A stretch of 64,000 nt of DNA, taken from positions 372,001 to 436,000 of the forward strand of contig NZ_FNBH01000002.1 of assembly GCF_900102265.1 (NCBI RefSeq), given 5' to 3'. The notes below the pieces were generated by a model. It did not search any database. It saw only the letters and a program-made list of their open reading frames with translations, and was not told the DNA's origin. The stretch comes from Epilithonimonas hungarica (lineage in GTDB: Bacteria; Bacteroidota; Bacteroidia; Flavobacteriales; Weeksellaceae). Of this stretch, positions 5,101 to 37,299 are shown in pieces (the first letter of the stretch is position 1; each line of letters starts with the position of its first letter). The position numbers and the translations under genes are program-made.

Positions 5101-6792
5101 ATGAGAAAACTATTTTATTTTATTACAGTTCTTTTATTGTTCTTTCAAAGTAATGCGCAAGAGTTTTCTTGGGGCAAAAGACTCGGGGGAGAAGGCGAAG
5201 ATGTCATCCGATCTTTGGTTGTAGATGCACAAGGCAATTCTTATGCGACCGGCTATTTTTCCGATTATTGTATTTTCGGAGAAGAATTGCAGCAGACAGA
5301 AATAGCGTCCAAAGGGATGTTTGATATCTTCATTTCCAAAACTTCCCCAAATGGCGAATTACTTTGGGTAAAAGCCATAGGAGGAACTGCCGACGATTAT
5401 GGAACAGCAATAACTGTCGATTCTAATGGTAATGTTTATATCACTGGTATTTTTCAGGAAACAGTGAATTTCAACCCGAATGGAACTGCTCAAAACTTAA
5501 CATCGAAAGGTGTGCAGGATATTTTTATCTTGAAATTAAATTCGAGTGGAAATTTTGTTTGGGTAAAGGGAATCGGAGGAGAACTCTATGAAGAAACAAG
5601 TGCTATACAAGTCGCATCCAATGGAGAGGTTTACCTTGCCGGATATTTTACGGGAGTTGTTGATTTCGACCCATCTGAATCAGAAAATACTATTAGTCCA
5701 ATTGGTCTTGTAGATTCTTTCTTTGCAAAATTATCAGACAACGGAAGCCTCTCTTGGGTCAGGACAATTGGTGGTTTTATGACAACGCCAATGGATATGA
5801 AATTGCACAATAACAATCTTTATGCATTGGGAAATTTAAAAAAAACCACAGATTTTGATCCCGATAGTGCACAAACACATAACATTACGGCTCTTGGTTT
5901 TGATGCTTACCTTTTAAAATTAGACCTTTCGGGAAATTTCGTCAATGTAACAACTACAAAAAGCCTCAACTCTTCTACCGGAACTACGCCCACAAATCTT
6001 AGCATAGATGGAAATGGCAATGCGTATGTTTCAGGATATTTCGGAGGAAGTATAGATTTTGGACCTGATGTTGAACATAATGGACAATACACATTCACTT
6101 CTGAAAGTATGCTTACCGGATTTGTGTTCAAAGTTGGAAATGATGGGAAATTGGTTTGGGCAAATTATCCAAAACCTAGTACAGAAGAGGCTTCGTCACT
6201 TGGCTATGGCCTTGTCACCAATAAAAATCAAGAGACATTTGTAACGGGATATATTGCCGGGAATGTCAAATTTGATGATATCGAATTGGAACAGAATACA
6301 GACCATTTTATGAACGCTTTTGTTGCAAAATTAGACTCACAGGGGAAATTTGTTGATGCAAAGTTATTTGCCGGTTCCAATTTTATCGATACGCATTGTG
6401 CAGCGATGGACGCTGATGAAAATCTGTACATCGGAGGCGCATTCACTGACCTTGTGAATATTGATCCGACAGGAAATGGAAGCTATTATCTATTTTCAAG
6501 AGGTTATAGAGATTCTTATGTGGTGAAGCTTAACAATACCGATCTTAAAGTCAAGGATATCAATTCAAAAACGGACTTACTGATCTATCCAAATCCTACA
6601 TCAGATATGATCTATTTAAAATCAAAAGAACAAATATCTGGTAACAAATATATTATACACGACATGGCTGGCAGAGAAATCTCAACCGGAGTTCTGGATA
6701 GCAAGCAAGAAATAAAAATCAATCTTCTTCCAAAAGGAAACTATATATTAAAAATCGGCAACAAATATCAAACAAAAATTATCAAAAATTAA
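5101..6792 (+). CDS. Secreted beta-propeller-like repeat protein with T9SS C-terminal sorting domain
   Basis: 563 residues. The ATG at 5101 is preferred to an in-frame TTG two codons earlier because MRKLFYFITVLLLFFQSNAQ is a clean signal peptide. The body (about residues 30-470) is a series of ~50-residue repeats with recurrent GN.Y..G.F......(D)F and AKL...G...W patterns, as in SBBP/propeller repeat proteins. The last ~80 residues (from LLIYPNPTSD to GNYILKI...) form a type A T9SS sorting domain, so it is exported across the outer membrane and anchored or released. Ligand or function unknown. It stands alone between murA and an AraC-type regulator. Confidence 0.8.
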   Translation: MRKLFYFITVLLLFFQSNAQEFSWGKRLGGEGEDVIRSLVVDAQGNSYATGYFSDYCIFGEELQQTEIASKGMFDIFISKTSPNGELLWVKAIGGTADDYGTAITVDSNGNVYITGIFQETVNFNPNGTAQNLTSKGVQDIFILKLNSSGNFVWVKGIGGELYEETSAIQVASNGEVYLAGYFTGVVDFDPSESENTISPIGLVDSFFAKLSDNGSLSWVRTIGGFMTTPMDMKLHNNNLYALGNLKKTTDFDPDSAQTHNITALGFDAYLLKLDLSGNFVNVTTTKSLNSSTGTTPTNLSIDGNGNAYVSGYFGGSIDFGPDVEHNGQYTFTSESMLTGFVFKVGNDGKLVWANYPKPSTEEASSLGYGLVTNKNQETFVTGYIAGNVKFDDIELEQNTDHFMNAFVAKLDSQGKFVDAKLFAGSNFIDTHCAAMDADENLYIGGAFTDLVNIDPTGNGSYYLFSRGYRDSYVVKLNNTDLKVKDINSKTDLLIYPNPTSDMIYLKSKEQISGNKYIIHDMAGREISTGVLDSKQEIKINLLPKGNYILKIGNKYQTKIIKN

Positions 6793-6852
6793 ATTTTATT
6801 AAATTCTGGCAATCAAATTTGCAAAAGTCTTGTACTTTTTCTAATTTTCGGA

Positions 6853-8067
6853 ATGGAAAGTTGGGAGATGCTCATTGACTTCGGTTTGATTGCCGGAATG
6901 TTTTTTATTTTTTTATTGATTTTTTTCCTAATAAAATCCGGTAAAGATATTACACGGATCCTGCTAATTGTTCTATTTAGCAATGCCCTTTTCTTTCTAT
7001 TCTATTATTATGGATATTTGCATCGTTCACGTCTAATTGGTGCTATTGCCGTATTTTTCGGTCACGGAGTTGGATATCTGCTAGGACCTGTGCTATTATT
7101 TTTACTCAAATCCCTTGTCCTTCCTCAGAAAAAAATCATCCTTCCACTTCTCAAGAACCTTGTTCCTTTTTTTGTCGTATTTGTATGTTTCAACATTCCC
7201 TTGTCTGTAGCAATGGCTACGGATTATCTTACACCATTCCACCATTTTTATATAAGGATAGAACCTTATTTTAATCTATTGGAGAATGGATTTTTGGCAA
7301 CCTACATCATTATTACACTCAACTTTTTTGCAAAACTAAAAAGTGTTTTCAAGGAGAATTATTCTATCTTGGAAAAAAACGACCTCAATTGGTACAGACA
7401 ACTTATAATTGGTCTTTTTATCATAATAACCATTGATTCTTTTTGCACGATCTACGAAATGTTTTTCCCAGAAATCCCTTGGAATATCGGGACGGTCATT
7501 GCCTTTTTATTTGTTGGATTCTATTTGTATTTAGGTTACAAAGGGATGTTCCAGTCCAGGATCCTTATGCCTGATTTCCTATTACAAAAAATCGAAAATG
7601 ACAATACCATCAACAGTGATGATCATCTCAATAATGAAATCGATCAAATTGCTGAAAATCCGGAAAAGAATTCATCGATCAAACAATTGGATATTTTTTC
7701 AAAAGAAGAGATAGACTCAATAAAAGAAAAACTGAACAGGGTTTTAGAAATCGATAAAATATTTTTAAATGATGAGCTGAATCTCACAGACTTGTCTGAC
7801 AGCATTGGCATTTCCAACAAAAAATTGTCGGAATTACTGAATCAACATCTCAATACCAATTTCTATAATTTAATTAATGATCATAGAATCGCAGAGGTCA
7901 TCAAGAAATTTGAAGAAGGAGACACATCCAAATTCACGATCATGTCCATTGCTAATGACTGCGGATTCCAGTCCAAAGCCAGTTTTTACAGAATCTTCAA
8001 ACAGAAAACGGGTGTTTCTCCCTCCGAGTTTATTAAAAATAAAAAAATAAAAAAGGAAGCTGTTTAA
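6853..8067 (+). CDS. Membrane-embedded AraC-family transcriptional regulator
   Basis: 404 residues. The N-terminal ~230 residues contain about seven hydrophobic segments. They are followed by a polar linker and a C-terminal AraC/XylS DNA-binding domain with two helix-turn-helix units (LTDLSDSIGISNKKLSELLN and IMSIANDCGFQSKASFYRIFK) ending in GVSPSEFIKN. This architecture, common in Flavobacteriia, suggests a sensor in the inner membrane that regulates directly from it. The target is not evident. The gene ends head-on against the NIL-domain gene: the two stop codons share TTAA at 8064-8067. Confidence 0.85.
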   Translation: MESWEMLIDFGLIAGMFFIFLLIFFLIKSGKDITRILLIVLFSNALFFLFYYYGYLHRSRLIGAIAVFFGHGVGYLLGPVLLFLLKSLVLPQKKIILPLLKNLVPFFVVFVCFNIPLSVAMATDYLTPFHHFYIRIEPYFNLLENGFLATYIIITLNFFAKLKSVFKENYSILEKNDLNWYRQLIIGLFIIITIDSFCTIYEMFFPEIPWNIGTVIAFLFVGFYLYLGYKGMFQSRILMPDFLLQKIENDNTINSDDHLNNEIDQIAENPEKNSSIKQLDIFSKEEIDSIKEKLNRVLEIDKIFLNDELNLTDLSDSIGISNKKLSELLNQHLNTNFYNLINDHRIAEVIKKFEEGDTSKFTIMSIANDCGFQSKASFYRIFKQKTGVSPSEFIKNKKIKKEAV

Positions 8068-8082
8068 GAAGCCTCCTTTTTT
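8049..8082. terminator. Bidirectional terminator inside two overlapping gene ends
   Basis: AAAAAAGGA (8049-8057) pairs perfectly with TCCTTTTTT (8074-8082), giving A and T runs on both strands. The loop holds both convergent stop codons (8064-8067), so one hairpin serves the AraC-type gene and the NIL-domain gene and is itself partly coding. Confidence 0.65.
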
Positions 8083-8372
8083 TGCAGAACATCTATTTTG
8101 CTGCTCAACAATTTATATTCTCTAAGATAACTTTCTATCTTATTGATCTGGTCCTGTGTGATATTTAGGAGAAGTTTTACGTTTCCGAAGTTACTTCCGT
8201 TGAGATATTCGATATTGGCATTTACGATTTTGTAACTTACGTTATAATGATTATAGATCGTATAAAGTAAGATATCGAATCTGATCTTTCCATTCAGTTC
8301 TATCTCAAGGATTATTTCTCTCGTGGGTTTCGGAAGAAAATTGTTGCCGGTAGTTTCTTGTTTGTAGATCAT
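8064..8372 (-). CDS. NIL domain-containing protein
   Basis: 102 residues. After a short N-terminal arm it reads REIILEIELNGKI ... NANIEYLNGSNFGNVKLLLN ... IESYLREYKL. This is the pattern of the NIL domain, the ~75-residue ferredoxin-like regulatory domain at the C-terminus of the methionine importer ATPase MetN, where it binds methionine. Here it stands alone. It is second in a leftward unit with the DUF4395 gene (23-base gap), which is preceded by a methionine-codon leader attenuator. That makes a methionine/sulfur role credible. Whether it senses methionine or binds a partner is open. Confidence 0.7.
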   Translation of the reverse strand: MIYKQETTGNNFLPKPTREIILEIELNGKIRFDILLYTIYNHYNVSYKIVNANIEYLNGSNFGNVKLLLNITQDQINKIESYLREYKLLSSKIDVLQKKEAS

Positions 8373-8395
8373 AGTAATATTTGGTATTTGGTGTA

Positions 8396-8827
8396 TTATT
8401 TAATTTTATTTTGAATTGGGACAACGACAAATTGGTAGATGTAACAGCCAACACAGATTTTGAATAAGCTTTCCAGACTTGCGAGGATAATTAATAAAAA
8501 CCCTGTGATGAAAGCCTCATCATAGAATCCATTTATCATTAATAGAAAAACCAGCACGGTGAAAACCGCTCCCAATGCTGCAGCAAATCTTTTAGGTGCT
8601 GCAAAAATGGATCTCTTTTTCAGTTTTAATATGTTCGCGATTGATTTTGAAAAAAGAGCTAAAGGAGAAAATGATTGTCCTAAAGCTCTAATAATAAAAT
8701 CAAAAACTAAGAGCAAAAGTAGAAACGGCCATTTAAAAAATAGAGATACGACGGCAACGACAATCACTGAAAATGCTGTCAACCTTACGGTATTTTCGTC
8801 TGTATAGTATTTTTTAGTTTGATCCAT
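8396..8827 (-). CDS. DUF4395 membrane protein
   Basis: 143 residues starting at the ATG at 8827 (MDQTKKYYTDENTVRLTAF). An upstream in-frame ATG at 8857 falls inside the attenuator terminator and is rejected. There are about four hydrophobic helices and a conserved-looking CVGCYIY segment in the last one. DUF4395 proteins are small integral membrane proteins of unknown function; I recall them near rhodanese/sulfurtransferase genes in other bacteria. First gene of the unit controlled by the leader-peptide attenuator, followed by the NIL-domain gene, which supports a role in sulfur or methionine metabolism or transport. Confidence 0.75.
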   Translation of the reverse strand: MDQTKKYYTDENTVRLTAFSVIVVAVVSLFFKWPFLLLLLVFDFIIRALGQSFSPLALFSKSIANILKLKKRSIFAAPKRFAAALGAVFTVLVFLLMINGFYDEAFITGFLLIILASLESLFKICVGCYIYQFVVVPIQNKIK

Positions 8828-8840
8828 AGTTGAAATTTTA

Positions 8841-8874
8841 AAATAAAAAAGCTTCACCGGTAAGATGAAGCTTT
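8841..8874 (-). terminator. Attenuator terminator hairpin
   Basis: A 9-bp perfect stem, AAAGCTTCA with TGAAGCTTT (plus 8848-8856 with 8866-8874), has a 9-base loop and a T-rich tail on the minus strand (8850-8841). It sits 14 bases before the DUF4395 start codon, so it can only act on read-through into that gene. Confidence 0.8.
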
Positions 8875-8937
8875 ATGTCATAGCTTTCTCACCGCACCCT
8901 TCAGTTCGTATTACACATCATCGCCATCTGTGAGAAA
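8841..8937 (-). promoter_or_regulatory. Transcription attenuator (three mutually exclusive hairpins) upstream of DUF4395/NIL genes
   Basis: Read on the minus strand. Structure 1:2 pairs TTTCTCAC (8937-8930) with GTGAGAAA (8892-8885), 8 perfect base pairs. Structure 2:3 (antiterminator) pairs GGTGAGA+AAGCT (8893-8882) with AGCTT+TCTTACC (8872-8868 and 8865-8859), 12 pairs with one G-U and a 2-base bulge. Structure 3:4 (terminator) pairs 8874-8866 with 8856-8848 and is followed by a T-rich tail (8850-8841). Segment 1 lies in leader-peptide codons 4-7, just before the Met codons. A ribosome stalled at those codons would cover segment 1, allow 2:3, and so permit read-through: the classic amino-acid attenuation arrangement. 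Confidence 0.75.
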
Positions 8938-8948
8938 ATCTGTTTCAT
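8901..8948 (-). CDS. Methionine-rich leader peptide (15 residues)
   Basis: From the ATG at 8948 the minus strand encodes MKQIFSQMAMMCNTN and a TGA at 8903-8901. Met occurs at positions 1, 8, 10 and 11, followed by Cys 12; three Met in four codons is far from random. The ORF begins about 20 bases after a consensus promoter and lies within the attenuator, with segment 1 of the pairing immediately 5' of Met8. I see no other role for so short a peptide than sensing charged tRNA-Met (and perhaps tRNA-Cys) by ribosome stalling. Confidence 0.7.
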   Translation of the reverse strand: MKQIFSQMAMMCNTN

Positions 8949-8966
8949 TATTTCTTAATTACATTG

Positions 8967-8996
8967 CAAATATAGAAATTATTTAATTCCCACCAA
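8967..8996 (-). promoter_or_regulatory. Consensus Bacteroidetes promoter for the attenuated operon
   Basis: On the minus strand a TTG (-33 element, 8996-8994) is followed after exactly 19 bases by TATATTTG (-7 element, 8974-8967). This matches the TTG-N19-TAnnTTTG consensus of Bacteroidetes housekeeping promoters and is the best promoter match in the window. Predicted transcription start is near 8960, 10-15 bases before the leader peptide. Confidence 0.75.
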
Positions 8997-9084
8997 ATAA
9001 GTATGAATTAAATTTACACAAATTCATTATTTGTTAACATTGGGATGGTTCCGTTTTTTTATTGCATGAGAATTAGAAGAAAAC

Positions 9085-9729
9085 TCACTCTATTTGTCCT
9101 ACTTTAAATAATTTTTCCGAAGCTGCGAGTCCATTAGGATTACAACCAGGTTCACCTTCCGGCACTTTGATGTTTTTCTCTTGATAGAATTTTTCCCAGA
9201 ACGTATTGGTTTTTCCAGTTTTAGGGTCGATGAAAGTCATCGGCTCTAATTTGAAAATCTGATTTTCACGAAAAGCACGCTCTACAAAATCGGAGCAATA
9301 ATACGATTGCTCATCCAGAATATAGTTGAAGTTATAAGGTTTTCCAACCAAAGTTTCAGCCTTGGAAACAGAATTCGGAATTGATGATCTGAACTCAGAT
9401 CTCAAACGATAAACATCGATCTTTTGCCCAGATCTTGTTTGTTCTTTTAAAAAATGATTGAGTTTTTGTTTCTGCGAACCACCTTTTGGTGCAGCGTGAA
9501 GAACATAAAGATGATGGTCTTCTTTTTTCACAATTCCGATATGGTCGTAAGATGTTTTTTTCTCTGTCTGTGTCACATTATTAATAGCTCCGGACAATCC
9601 GGACTCTACAGCAGGTACGAAAAGCAAATCGCCGTTTTCCAAAATCGAAGTATTATGAGTTTTGCAGCTTGTTAAAAAAAACAGCGCAAAAATAAGGTAA
9701 ACTAAATTACTTTTTATAATTCTTCTCAT
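9085..9729 (-). CDS. YiiX-like permuted papain (NlpC/P60 superfamily) lipoprotein
   Basis: 214 residues from the ATG at 9729 (MRRIIKSN...); an alternative ATG at 9747 adds six residues. The signal sequence ends in LTSC, a lipobox, so it is a lipoprotein. The catalytic pattern is that of circularly permuted papain-like enzymes: DHIGIV with the His early, and YYCSDFVERAF with the Cys late. The N-terminal ENGDLLFVP matches the family start. Related proteins are presumed amidases or thioesterases acting on cell-wall or lipid substrates. It overlaps the end of the DUF1801 gene upstream by 23 bases, so the two are co-translated. Confidence 0.8.
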   Translation of the reverse strand: MRRIIKSNLVYLIFALFFLTSCKTHNTSILENGDLLFVPAVESGLSGAINNVTQTEKKTSYDHIGIVKKEDHHLYVLHAAPKGGSQKQKLNHFLKEQTRSGQKIDVYRLRSEFRSSIPNSVSKAETLVGKPYNFNYILDEQSYYCSDFVERAFRENQIFKLEPMTFIDPKTGKTNTFWEKFYQEKNIKVPEGEPGCNPNGLAASEKLFKVGQIE

Positions 9730-10162
9730 AAATTGTAATCCATTCATCTACAGATATTTTTGTACAAAGTTCGCCCATCAATTCATAAGGAATATCGTCC
9801 ATTTTTTTGAACCGGATACAGGATTTTCCCATATCCAGTTTCTTTTTGGAATGATTGGGAAATTCTGATACAAACCAATCTAAAATCTTTTGGTCTGCAT
9901 AGATTCCCGTATTATAAAAAGCAATAAAATTCTTCTGCGAAGCTACACTTATGAAAGGTAAAGGTGTATTTTTCGCACAATGGTAACCCGCAGGATAAGT
10001 TTCCAAGGGCACGCACCAAGTGACCATTCCGTATTGCATATTCTGTTGAAAGCCTTTGGGAAGATTGCGATCAACAGTTTCTAATAACTTCCTGAAAGCA
10101 TCTCTTCTTTCCTCAGGAATCTGGGAAATATATTCTTCTATGGTATCAACAAAAATCTGCAT
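9707..10162 (-). CDS. DUF1801 domain-containing protein
   Basis: 151 residues, soluble, with no signal peptide. The sequence EEYISQIPEERRDAFRKLLE, then QYGMVTWCVPLETYP, FIAFYNTGIYAD and a C-terminal KSCIRFKKMDDIP...L is the DUF1801 (YdhG-like) fold. These are small cytoplasmic proteins of unknown biochemical role, some described as iron-related chaperone-like proteins. It is translated just ahead of, and overlapping, the YiiX-like lipoprotein gene. Confidence 0.8.
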   Translation of the reverse strand: MQIFVDTIEEYISQIPEERRDAFRKLLETVDRNLPKGFQQNMQYGMVTWCVPLETYPAGYHCAKNTPLPFISVASQKNFIAFYNTGIYADQKILDWFVSEFPNHSKKKLDMGKSCIRFKKMDDIPYELMGELCTKISVDEWITIYEKNYKK

Positions 10163-10221
10163 TTGATCATTTATTAAAGTTTATCGCAAAGTCGCAAAAA
10201 CAAATTAAAATTGAATTACTA

Positions 10222-10264
10222 TTAAGTCGCAAGATTTTCATTATTGAAAAAATTGGCGACTTAA
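10222..10264. repeat. Intergenic palindrome (AAGTCGC...GCGACTT)
   Basis: TTAAGTCGC (10222-10230) is repeated inverted as GCGACTTAA (10256-10264) around a 25-base AT-rich loop. It lies in the divergent gap between the DUF1801 and aminotransferase genes. A TATTTTTG box at 10363-10370 is a likely -7 element for the aminotransferase. No gene is seen in 10163-10390. Confidence 0.45.
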
Positions 10265-10390
10265 AAACACAATACTTTATAAAATTTAGCCCCTTTACGA
10301 TTAAATAAAATTCAATTATTCTGAATCAAAAATACTAATTTTTTTATTGAAAATTTAAACCTTATTTTTGTATCCCAAAGTCAAATAATA

Positions 10391-11599
10391 ATGCCGAAAA
10401 TATCGCAAAGAGCGCAGCATATGCCTGCATCTCCAGTTAGAAAATTAGTTCCTTATGCAACAATAGCAAAACAAAAGGGAATCAAAGTTTATCATCTCAA
10501 CATTGGTCAGCCGGACATCGAAACACCTGAAACTGCTTTGAATGCTGTGAAAAACATCGACCTCAAAGTTTTGGAATACGCTTTATCAGAAGGCAATATC
10601 GAGTACAGAAAAGCTTTGACAGAATATTATCATTCTCTTGGATTTACGGATCTTACTCCTGATAATTTCATCGTAACAAACGGAGGTTCAGAAGCTTTGA
10701 ATTTCGCCATTTCTACGCTTTGTGATGACGGAGATGAAATCATTATTCCGGAACCTTATTATGCTAATTATAACGGATTCGCAGGAACGTTCAACATCAA
10801 TGTAGTTGCGGTTCCTTCAACGATTGATACAGGATTTGCTCTACCTTCAATTGAAGAATTTGAGAAAAAAATCACAGGTAAAACAAGAGCAATAATTGTT
10901 TGTAATCCTGGAAATCCAACAGGTTATCTGTATTCCAGAGAAGAACTTCAGAAGTTGGCAGAGATTGCAAAAAAACACGATATCGTGATTATTTCTGACG
11001 AAGTTTACAGAGAATATGTTTATGACGGTGAACAACAGATCTCAATGTTTGAATTTCCTGAAGTAGCAGACAACGTTATCGTCATCGATTCGGAATCTAA
11101 AAGATATTCAATGTGTGGTGCAAGAATTGGATGTTTGATCACACGTTCTAAGAAGATTCACGATGCAGCAATTCTTTTTGCACAGGCGAGATTGAGTCCG
11201 GTTCTTTTAGGCCAGATCGCAGCAACCGCAGCTCATAAAAACGATGCAGAATATATCGCCAAAGTAAGAGAAGAATATACCAACCGAAGAAATCTTCTGG
11301 TAGAATTATTGAATGAAATTCCAGGCGTGATATGCCCAAAACCAAAAGGCGCTTTCTATTGCGGTGTAGAACTGCCCGTAGATGACTCTGATAAATTTGC
11401 GCAATGGCTTTTGGAAAGTTATTCCAATAACAATGAAACTGTTATGGTTGCGCCAATGGGAGGCTTTTACAGCAATCCGGAGTTAGGAAAAAAACAAGTA
11501 AGGATCGCATATGTTTTGAAGCAGGAAGACCTTAGAAGAAGTGTTGAGCTCTTAAAAGATGCGATAGAAAAATACAGAACCGAATTTGGTTTGAATTAA
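10391..11599 (+). CDS. Pyridoxal phosphate-dependent aminotransferase, class I/II
   Basis: 402 residues. Fold-type I aminotransferase with NGGSEAL (residues 97-103, PLP phosphate contact), CNPGNPTG (171-178), SDEVYREY (202-209) and SESKRYSMCGARIG, in which Lys237 should be the Schiff-base lysine. Closest in style to aspartate/aromatic aminotransferases annotated simply as PLP-dependent aminotransferase in Flavobacteriia. The amino donor cannot be fixed from sequence. Monocistronic: promoter box at 10363-10370 and terminator at 11621-11670. Confidence 0.9.
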   Translation: MPKISQRAQHMPASPVRKLVPYATIAKQKGIKVYHLNIGQPDIETPETALNAVKNIDLKVLEYALSEGNIEYRKALTEYYHSLGFTDLTPDNFIVTNGGSEALNFAISTLCDDGDEIIIPEPYYANYNGFAGTFNINVVAVPSTIDTGFALPSIEEFEKKITGKTRAIIVCNPGNPTGYLYSREELQKLAEIAKKHDIVIISDEVYREYVYDGEQQISMFEFPEVADNVIVIDSESKRYSMCGARIGCLITRSKKIHDAAILFAQARLSPVLLGQIAATAAHKNDAEYIAKVREEYTNRRNLLVELLNEIPGVICPKPKGAFYCGVELPVDDSDKFAQWLLESYSNNNETVMVAPMGGFYSNPELGKKQVRIAYVLKQEDLRRSVELLKDAIEKYRTEFGLN

Positions 11600-37031: not shown

Positions 37032-37206
37032 AATAAGTAGATAAAAGAAAATAGAATAAAGATAAAAGACTTACAATCAATTTGTTTTTTTATTGAAAAT
37101 AAATACATTAATCCATTTTTATTACTCGTTTTGTTACACATACTTTGTTACCAAAGATACAAAATGTTAACTTGTATGCCTAAGTTTATAATTATTACTG
37201 AATCCC

Positions 37207-37299
37207 ATAGCCCCGATTGCAGTGGAAATCCTTTTGCTTTTTTTTCACATATGAAAAAGCAAAAGATTGCAACGGAAAGCGGGATCAAGCTCCTGAAAT
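37207..37299. repeat. Structured intergenic element with long hairpin and internal direct repeats
   Basis: A perfect 12-bp stem pairs CTTTTGCTTTTT (37231-37242) with AAAAAGCAAAAG (37254-37265). It is bracketed by the direct repeats GATTGCAGTGGAAA (37215-37228) and GATTGCAACGGAAA (37265-37278), and outside by AGC+CCCG (37209-37215) with CGGG+GCT (37280-37291). I recall very similar AGCCC...GGAAAGC.GG...GCTCCTGAAA elements after genes in many Flavobacteriia. The rest of 37032-37355 shows only AT-rich DNA and a TATCTTTG box (minus strand, 37153-37160); a 69-codon ORF there has no credible protein character. Confidence 0.55.

Follow-up and report, generated by a model that had tools for sequence, protein, structure and literature searches.

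The window, a 64,000-nucleotide stretch of the Epilithonimonas hungarica genome, carries on its minus strand a DUF4395 gene (8396..8827, with its ATG at 8827; Pfam PF14340, 1.2e-26) followed by a gene for a standalone NIL-domain protein of 102 aa (8064..8372; Pfam PF09383, 3.1e-9), and both gene assignments made in an earlier note on this DNA hold. NIL is the methionine-sensing domain of MetN, but whereas MetN combines an ABC ATPase and NIL in one protein, the window protein is NIL alone, and its match to the C-terminus of the MetN model is weak (22.7 bits vs. a cut-off of 499.7). DUF4395 contains an invariant Cys-x-x-Cys motif (ICVGCY), with C125 and C128 present in all 47 aligned sequences; identities are 55–87% for Epilithonimonas, Chryseobacterium and one Flavobacteriaceae bacterium, and 43–45% for other Bacteroidetes. 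Elsewhere in the window, on the plus strand, there is a match to Flavo-1 RNA (37205–37290; Rfam RF01705, 79.9 bits).

The region upstream of DUF4395, also read on the minus strand, contains a promoter, a short open reading frame and several RNA pairings. The promoter (8967..8996) has the form TTG-N19-TATATTTG, with TTG at 8996–8994 and TATATTTG at 8974–8967; it is kept in the genus alignment and fits the Bacteroidota promoter consensus. A palindromic operator-like element, TTTAATTCATACTTATTTGGTGGGAATTAAA (8982..9012), overlaps the -33 box. The leader ORF, MKQIFSQMAMMCNTN (8901..8948), has 15 codons with Met at positions 1, 8, 10 and 11 and Cys at position 12, and the Met11-Cys12 codons (ATG TGT; 8913..8918) form the presumed stall site. 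Stem 1:2 (8885..8937) joins TTTCTCAC (8937–8930) to GTGAGAAA (8892–8885) with 8 of 8 positions paired, and the candidate antiterminator 2:3 (8859..8893) joins GGTGAGAAAGCT (8893–8882) to AGCTTCATCTTACC (8872–8859) through 12 pairs with a 2-nt bulge. A small hairpin folds at the leader stop codon (8893..8908), and the predicted intrinsic terminator 3:4 (8841..8874) has a stem at 8874–8848 and a T-rich tail to 8841. On re-reading the sequence, the promoter, the 15-codon leader and the three pairings described in the earlier note lie where it had placed them, although 11 pairs are computed for the terminator stem vs. the nine claimed. To that account we add a palindrome that overlaps the promoter, the hairpin at the stop codon and, as described below, leaders ahead of other DUF4395 operons.

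Single-sequence statistics cannot carry the attenuator claim because the fold of 8841–8960 is only mildly better than those of shuffled sequences (z -1.52; 12 of 200 shuffles as good). Terminator-like sites within 6000–11000 are also near chance (five found vs. a shuffled mean of 3.2, s.d. 2.3). It is conservation, rather than any one sequence, that is judged to raise the leader region above chance. A leader, promoter and terminator lie upstream of DUF4395 in 21 of 21 loci read (20 genus genomes and L007), DUF4395 being present in 20 of 23 Epilithonimonas genomes. In G005 and G014, which lack DUF4395, the leader stands directly before NIL, giving 23 leaders altogether. The leader, DUF4395 and NIL were all not found in G011, in which it differs from the other 22 genus genomes, and the leader is retained in all 22 genus genomes holding NIL. 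Because it is kept before NIL without DUF4395, and because all three are missing in G011, the leader tracks NIL. Model R1 matches 22 of the 23 genus genomes with E values of 3e-14 or lower, the exception being G011. Eleven weak R1 matches (E 2e-4 to 7e-3), of which ten lie in other genera and the last is an additional hit in G020, are taken as chance; among the eight that were read, DUF4395 or NIL is never preceded by a conserved Met-Cys leader, and most of the eight are terminators or coding sequence. One of them, L062, has a chance ORF ending in MMMC that overlaps the end of another ORF.

The 23 leaders comprise 17 distinct peptides of 14 or 15 codons, in all of which the frame is open. They end in TAA (11 leaders), TGA (8) or TAG (4), and their Cys codon is TGT in 21 and TGC in two. 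Besides the start, the only residues invariant in 23 of 23 leaders are the dipeptide Met-Cys (Met11-Cys12 in the window). The leader is probably translated, since all three stops are used, the length change is in-frame and Met-Cys is invariant; the ORF thus has the look of a coding sequence. The earlier note built its reading on the Met run, which is unlikely to be the conserved sensor: Met8 and Met10 are not conserved, and internal Met codons number one in 14 leaders, two in three and three in six.

Comparison across clades indicates that the ORF and the terminator are solid and that stems 1:2 and 2:3 are supported only in some clades. The recurrence in relatives that the earlier note had proposed as a check is therefore found for the short ORFs, in part for compensatory change in the terminator, and only by clade for 1:2 and 2:3. 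Two of ten pairs in the terminator consensus fold are changed on both sides with pairing kept. Duplex tests set cognate arms against mononucleotide-shuffled partners, using few and related sequences. For 1:2 these give -19.5 vs. a shuffled -9.0 in the main clade (29 of 960 as low) and -12.6 vs. -8.5 in the window clade (22 of 300), and values no better than shuffles in L007 (27 of 60 as low) and L024 (52 of 60). For 2:3 the window clade gives -16.2 vs. -8.7 (3 of 300), and L007 and L024 have 0 and 1 of 60 shuffles as low; the main clade is weak (-10.8 vs. -8.3; 195 of 960). Cross-clade arm swaps reveal no clear preference for cognate 1:2 arms, and window-clade 5′ arms bind the 3′ arms of the main clade more strongly (-16.0) than those of their own clade (-12.6). 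A column covariation test of 1:2 on a MAFFT alignment is negative (78.7% of cells paired vs. 78.8% in shuffles), a result to which the out-of-register placing of the window clade contributes. The stop-codon hairpin appears in 22 of 23 folds (the exception is L033), and its second pair, read by eye from the folds since the hairpin alignment is ungapped and out of register, is C-G in the main clade, A-U in L024 and G-C in the window clade. Individually these hairpins are weak, the fraction of shuffles as low ranging from 0.01 to 0.45.

The full-length window RNA is predicted to fold with 1:2 and 3:4 at -25.0 kcal/mol vs. -21.4 kcal/mol when 2:3 is forced. If the RNA is masked as far as the leading edge of a stalled ribosome, given the usual footprint sizes, and arm 4 is absent, 2:3 forms with 6 to 12 pairs in 21 of 21 leaders scored (L020 and L048, for which the crude score called no terminator, are left out). 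With arm 4 present the terminator returns in 17 of the 21, and the RNAs of L001 (the window), L015, L021 and L056 are antiterminated. Before arm 4 is made, the window RNA prefers 2:3 even unmasked, with no stalled ribosome. Given this preference and the thermodynamic return to the terminator in 17 of 21 leaders, the switch must lean on timing, as classical attenuators likewise do.

We favor, with a probability of roughly 0.75, a ribosome-mediated Cys/Met transcription attenuator acting on a DUF4395-NIL sulfur-amino-acid operon, a reading that builds on the anatomy of the leader region, its conservation, and the recurrence of Cys/Met leaders before DUF4395 operons. The signal is most likely the supply of cysteine and/or methionine, and there is a good likelihood that cysteine, alone or with methionine, is sensed. 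A shortage of charged tRNA-Cys and/or tRNA-Met would stall a ribosome whose P and A sites are occupied by the Met-Cys codons. The stalled ribosome would cover UUUCUCAC, the 5′ arm immediately upstream, together with the 5′ half of the stop-codon hairpin that follows. Arm 2 (GGUGAGAAAGCU) would be freed to pair with arm 3 while arm 4 is still to be transcribed, pre-empting the terminator and giving read-through into the DUF4395-NIL operon. When Cys and Met are plentiful the ribosome would reach the stop codon and leave, the leader would tie up arm 2 through the stop-codon hairpin and 1:2, and transcription would end at the 3:4 terminator. Initiation would probably be controlled separately, by an Rrf2-family sulfur regulator on the palindrome over the promoter. 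Termination, its relief and the identity of the regulator are all predictions from the sequence. Counting against this reading, 14 of the 23 leaders offer a single internal Met codon and a single Cys codon, a low number by the standard of classical attenuators.

Leaders with terminators are also found before DUF4395 operons in four other genera and one unclassified MAG, and most contain Cys runs. A wider scan of loci gives NCCC leaders in four genomes of genus g8 (MNCCC[SP]F; G212, G213, G217 and G218), VMCCC leaders in G394 and G830, and a CCCC leader in L011, all with terminators. Before EamA-type permease genes there are MVCCC leaders (G739 and G944), an MMMC leader (G275) and a CCM leader (G804). 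An MMCCC leader in G214 precedes a TonB-receptor-like gene, the operon here being only putative because the receptor gene is separated from DUF4395 by a hairpin. DUF4395 itself is present in 30 of 316 genomes of the family, 36 of 395 of the class and 50 of 244 of the family to which G394 belongs. Most DUF4395 genes have no such leader: a Met/Cys leader and terminator lie directly upstream in one (G394) of 29 class loci read and not in the other 28. A GTG-started ORF with a weak terminator (L177) and Met/Cys-rich ORFs lacking a terminator at eleven loci are taken as chance.

A control scan of 623 other genes, drawn from the same loci and not from random genomes, finds a leader and terminator at six. 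Five of these head DUF4395 operons (G214, putatively, G275, G739, G804 and G944/L010), and the sixth (L159) looks like chance. For DUF4395 genes themselves the same combination is found at 13 of 104, an undercount for Epilithonimonas because the crude terminator score missed L020 and L048.

Five genomes have two leader-terminator modules in series (G394, G830, G739, G275 and G804; loci L180, L185, L184, L082 and L188). Each Met/Cys leader has its own terminator and both modules are upstream of the first gene of the operon; a [ST]-S-K-M-[MI] stretch is common to four of the five first-module leaders. The candidate antiterminator is matched by at most 35 of 1000 shuffles in nine of 15 modules (G739 B, G275 A and B, G804 A, G944 B, G214, L011, G218 and G217) and is unconvincing in the other six (of 1000 shuffles as low: G394 A 138 and B 291, G830 A 164 and B 141, G739 A 71, G804 B 606). 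Stem 1:2 is convincing in two of six leaders outside the genus (G213, 3 of 500 as low; G217, 5 of 500) and unconvincing in G218 (148 of 500), G212 (128), G394 (491) and L011 (317). Outside the genus, a ribosome reaching arm 2 near the end of the leader may replace 1:2.

The genes around DUF4395 include several linked to sulfur amino acids. The order EamA-DUF4395-MetN-MetI-MetQ is found in G275, G739 and G804, and also with insertions in G944, where a peroxiredoxin gene, another gene and a tRNA-Cys gene lie between EamA and DUF4395; the names rest on Pfam for G275 EamA, MetN and MetI and for the G804 ATPase, NIL and MetQ (NlpA lipoprotein), and are otherwise assigned by eye. DUF4395 adjoins MetN in L082, L160, L184, L010/L186 and L188. 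MetN is in two pieces in the metNIQ-like operon of G804 (L188:2029-3047), where a 245-aa ATPase and a 94-aa NIL protein are encoded separately. Free NIL probably derives from MetN, and the split MetN of L188 is a possible origin of free NIL genes. G394 and G830 have a DUF4395-NIL operon like that of the window, situated behind a tRNA-Cys gene. Genes for tRNA-Cys (GCA) at L180:1697-1769, L185:1392-1464, L012:2899-2970, L013:2878-2949 and L010:2174-2248 are inside or just before DUF4395 operons, so a Cys-codon leader can precede a tRNA-Cys gene. Neighbors of DUF4395 recognized by eye include cysteine synthase (L102, L158, L163 and L167), an O-acetylhomoserine sulfhydrylase-like gene with a rhodanese gene (L108), and Rrf2 with peroxiredoxins (L086, L087, L089, L090 and L098, the L086 Rrf2 being assigned by Pfam); many other DUF4395 loci have no such sulfur or Rrf2 neighbor. 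Near the DUF4395-metNIQ operon of L082, group II intron matches (L082:4574-6316) surround a 438-aa ORF that by eye is reverse-transcriptase-like.

These leaders and their neighbors bear on which amino acid is sensed. An attenuator for methionine alone, with the Met run as sensor and Cys incidental, would fit Met 8, 10 and 11 of the window leader, the role of NIL as the methionine-sensing domain of MetN, the metNIQ genes adjoining DUF4395 in some genomes, and the placing of Met before Cys in 23 of 23 leaders. However, most genus leaders (14 of 23) have a single internal Met, the Cys is invariant, and the g8 (NCCC) and L011 (CCCC) leaders rest on Cys runs, which makes a methionine-only sensor improbable. 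A weaker point against it is the presence of tRNA-Cys and no other tRNA in five of eight loci scanned, these having been chosen partly for a tRNA already seen.

The peptide itself could also be the sensor, with IFS[QH]IxMC arresting the ribosome when a small molecule (for example cysteine or S-adenosylmethionine) is sensed, and not for want of charged tRNA. Such arrest would account for Met-Cys and the flanking IFS[QH]I being kept in most leaders, and a single Met and a single Cys codon are little for a codon-starvation sensor. Yet the residues before Met-Cys vary (MYQNCSNMMMC in L007 and MIKSYSHIMMC in L024), the conserved F and S codons fall in the 1:2 arm, and the leaders of other genera are unrelated peptides with mainly Met and Cys in common; we regard nascent-peptide arrest as less probable still than a methionine-only sensor.

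A conserved structured leader with a terminator before sulfur-linked genes is also what a metabolite riboswitch or protein-binding RNA with an accidental ORF would present. The window leader contains no Rfam 15 family at gathering score, however, the only match being a chance-level snoRNA (E 0.44), and a scan of eight other loci returns only tRNA and group II intron matches and no riboswitch or T-box. Use of all three stops, the in-frame length change and the variation of 1:2 and 2:3 by clade while Met-Cys is invariant further argue against this explanation, which we consider very unlikely.

The palindrome core is present in the upstream regions of 21 of 21 loci by a loose pattern and 19 of 21 by a stricter one. 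In the window genome either pattern has a single match, at this promoter, and none at other sulfur genes. ATTAGTCTACTAATTTGGTAGACTAAT or a close variant stands upstream of the NIL gene in all ten Chryseobacterium loci read, which were picked from many (L068 is the most deviant); there NIL follows the same Peptidase_C92 gene, without DUF4395, and none of the ten loci has an ATG-started Met/Cys leader before NIL. Of 173 Chryseobacterium genomes, 124 contain a related motif, CTACTNANTTGGTAGGATA (at most one mismatch), against a single control match overall. This motif directly follows an Rrf2 gene in 27 of 30 Chryseobacterium loci read; the downstream gene is cysH in 19 of them and TauE-like in eight (identified by Pfam for L198 only), and the remaining three loci have no adjoining Rrf2 gene. 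In L202 and L204 an Rrf2-type motif stands before a gene that by eye is JmjC/cupin-like, without adjoining Rrf2. Outside Epilithonimonas, GTCTACTATTTTAGTAGAC lies ahead of the leader in L010, and no comparable palindrome was noted before the other leaders checked.

An Rrf2 homologue with 46–50% identity to the L125 Rrf2 is encoded in all 23 Epilithonimonas genomes, and in six loci read no sulfur genes adjoin it. The link to the regulator is only by analogy, because the Epilithonimonas Rrf2 gene is not beside sulfur genes in those six loci and the motif occurs once in the window genome; by that analogy, Rrf2 control of the promoter seems somewhat more probable than its absence. CymR and IscR belong to the Rrf2 family, and the L125 Rrf2 encoded beside the motif scores 61.2 bits with the NCBIfam model for CymR and 74.1 bits with that for IscR, far under the cut-offs of 195 and 207.55, so by NCBIfam it is neither. 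That the palindrome is the sole regulator and the leader and terminator are without effect, as the leaderless Chryseobacterium NIL genes behind a related palindrome might suggest, is the least likely of the explanations, given the leader in all 22 NIL-holding genus genomes and the kept terminator pairs.

Beyond the Cys/Met attenuator favored for the window, a wider and more tentative reading, to which we give slightly less than even odds, is that a Bacteroidota-wide family of mixed Cys/Met attenuators controls a DUF4395 sulfur-amino-acid uptake unit, either EamA-DUF4395-MetNIQ or a reduced DUF4395-NIL. In some lineages, serial modules and an Rrf2-controlled promoter would then constitute a three-stage gate; DUF4395 would act in sulfur-amino-acid or sulfane-sulfur handling, and free NIL would be a sensor left over from MetN. 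The attenuator reading, if right, would assign a physiology, sulfur amino acid supply, to two families without a known function, DUF4395 and free NIL. The loci would also form a natural series with no leader (the ten Chryseobacterium loci), one (Epilithonimonas) and two in series (five other genomes), which makes attenuator evolution testable.

Poly-cysteine short ORFs of mycobacteria were reportedly described by Canestrari in 2020. Such ORFs stand before sulfur genes and are thought to be cysteine-responsive (PMC4633059; predicted in PMC1262725), a Mycobacterium smegmatis case being called translation attenuation in the available text of PMC13236596. No terminator hairpins were found in Mycobacterium according to the available text of PMC1262725, whereas a terminator and a candidate antiterminator are present here. 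Within mostly open-access literature, cysteine-codon attenuation is in print in few places, and we found there neither a mixed Met/Cys leader nor control of this kind over DUF4395 or NIL, no literature on DUF4395 itself as judged by titles, and none on the NIL domain with methionine in Bacteroidetes. For Flavobacterium psychrophilum, a member of the same class, there are hints that leader peptides attenuate operons of amino-acid biosynthesis, with Met, DUF4395 and NIL not named as targets in the available text (PMC9723704). The uORFC-8-2 motif upstream of cysS in Rhodobacterales, a predicted ribosome-mediated attenuator, is similar in having a short ORF with Cys codons, stems and an intrinsic terminator. 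As described in the available text, it belongs to the Alphaproteobacteria, precedes a cysteinyl-tRNA synthetase gene and has two tandem Cys codons, usually 14 and 15 (PMC8632094). The window leader, with Met-Cys and one Cys codon, DUF4395/NIL downstream and a Bacteroidota host, is not the same motif. Two short ORFs in one leader are known from Salmonella mgtCBR, where the signals are ATP and proline (PMC3641672, in the text available); the serial modules before DUF4395 operons differ in that each has its own terminator and both are rich in Met/Cys codons.
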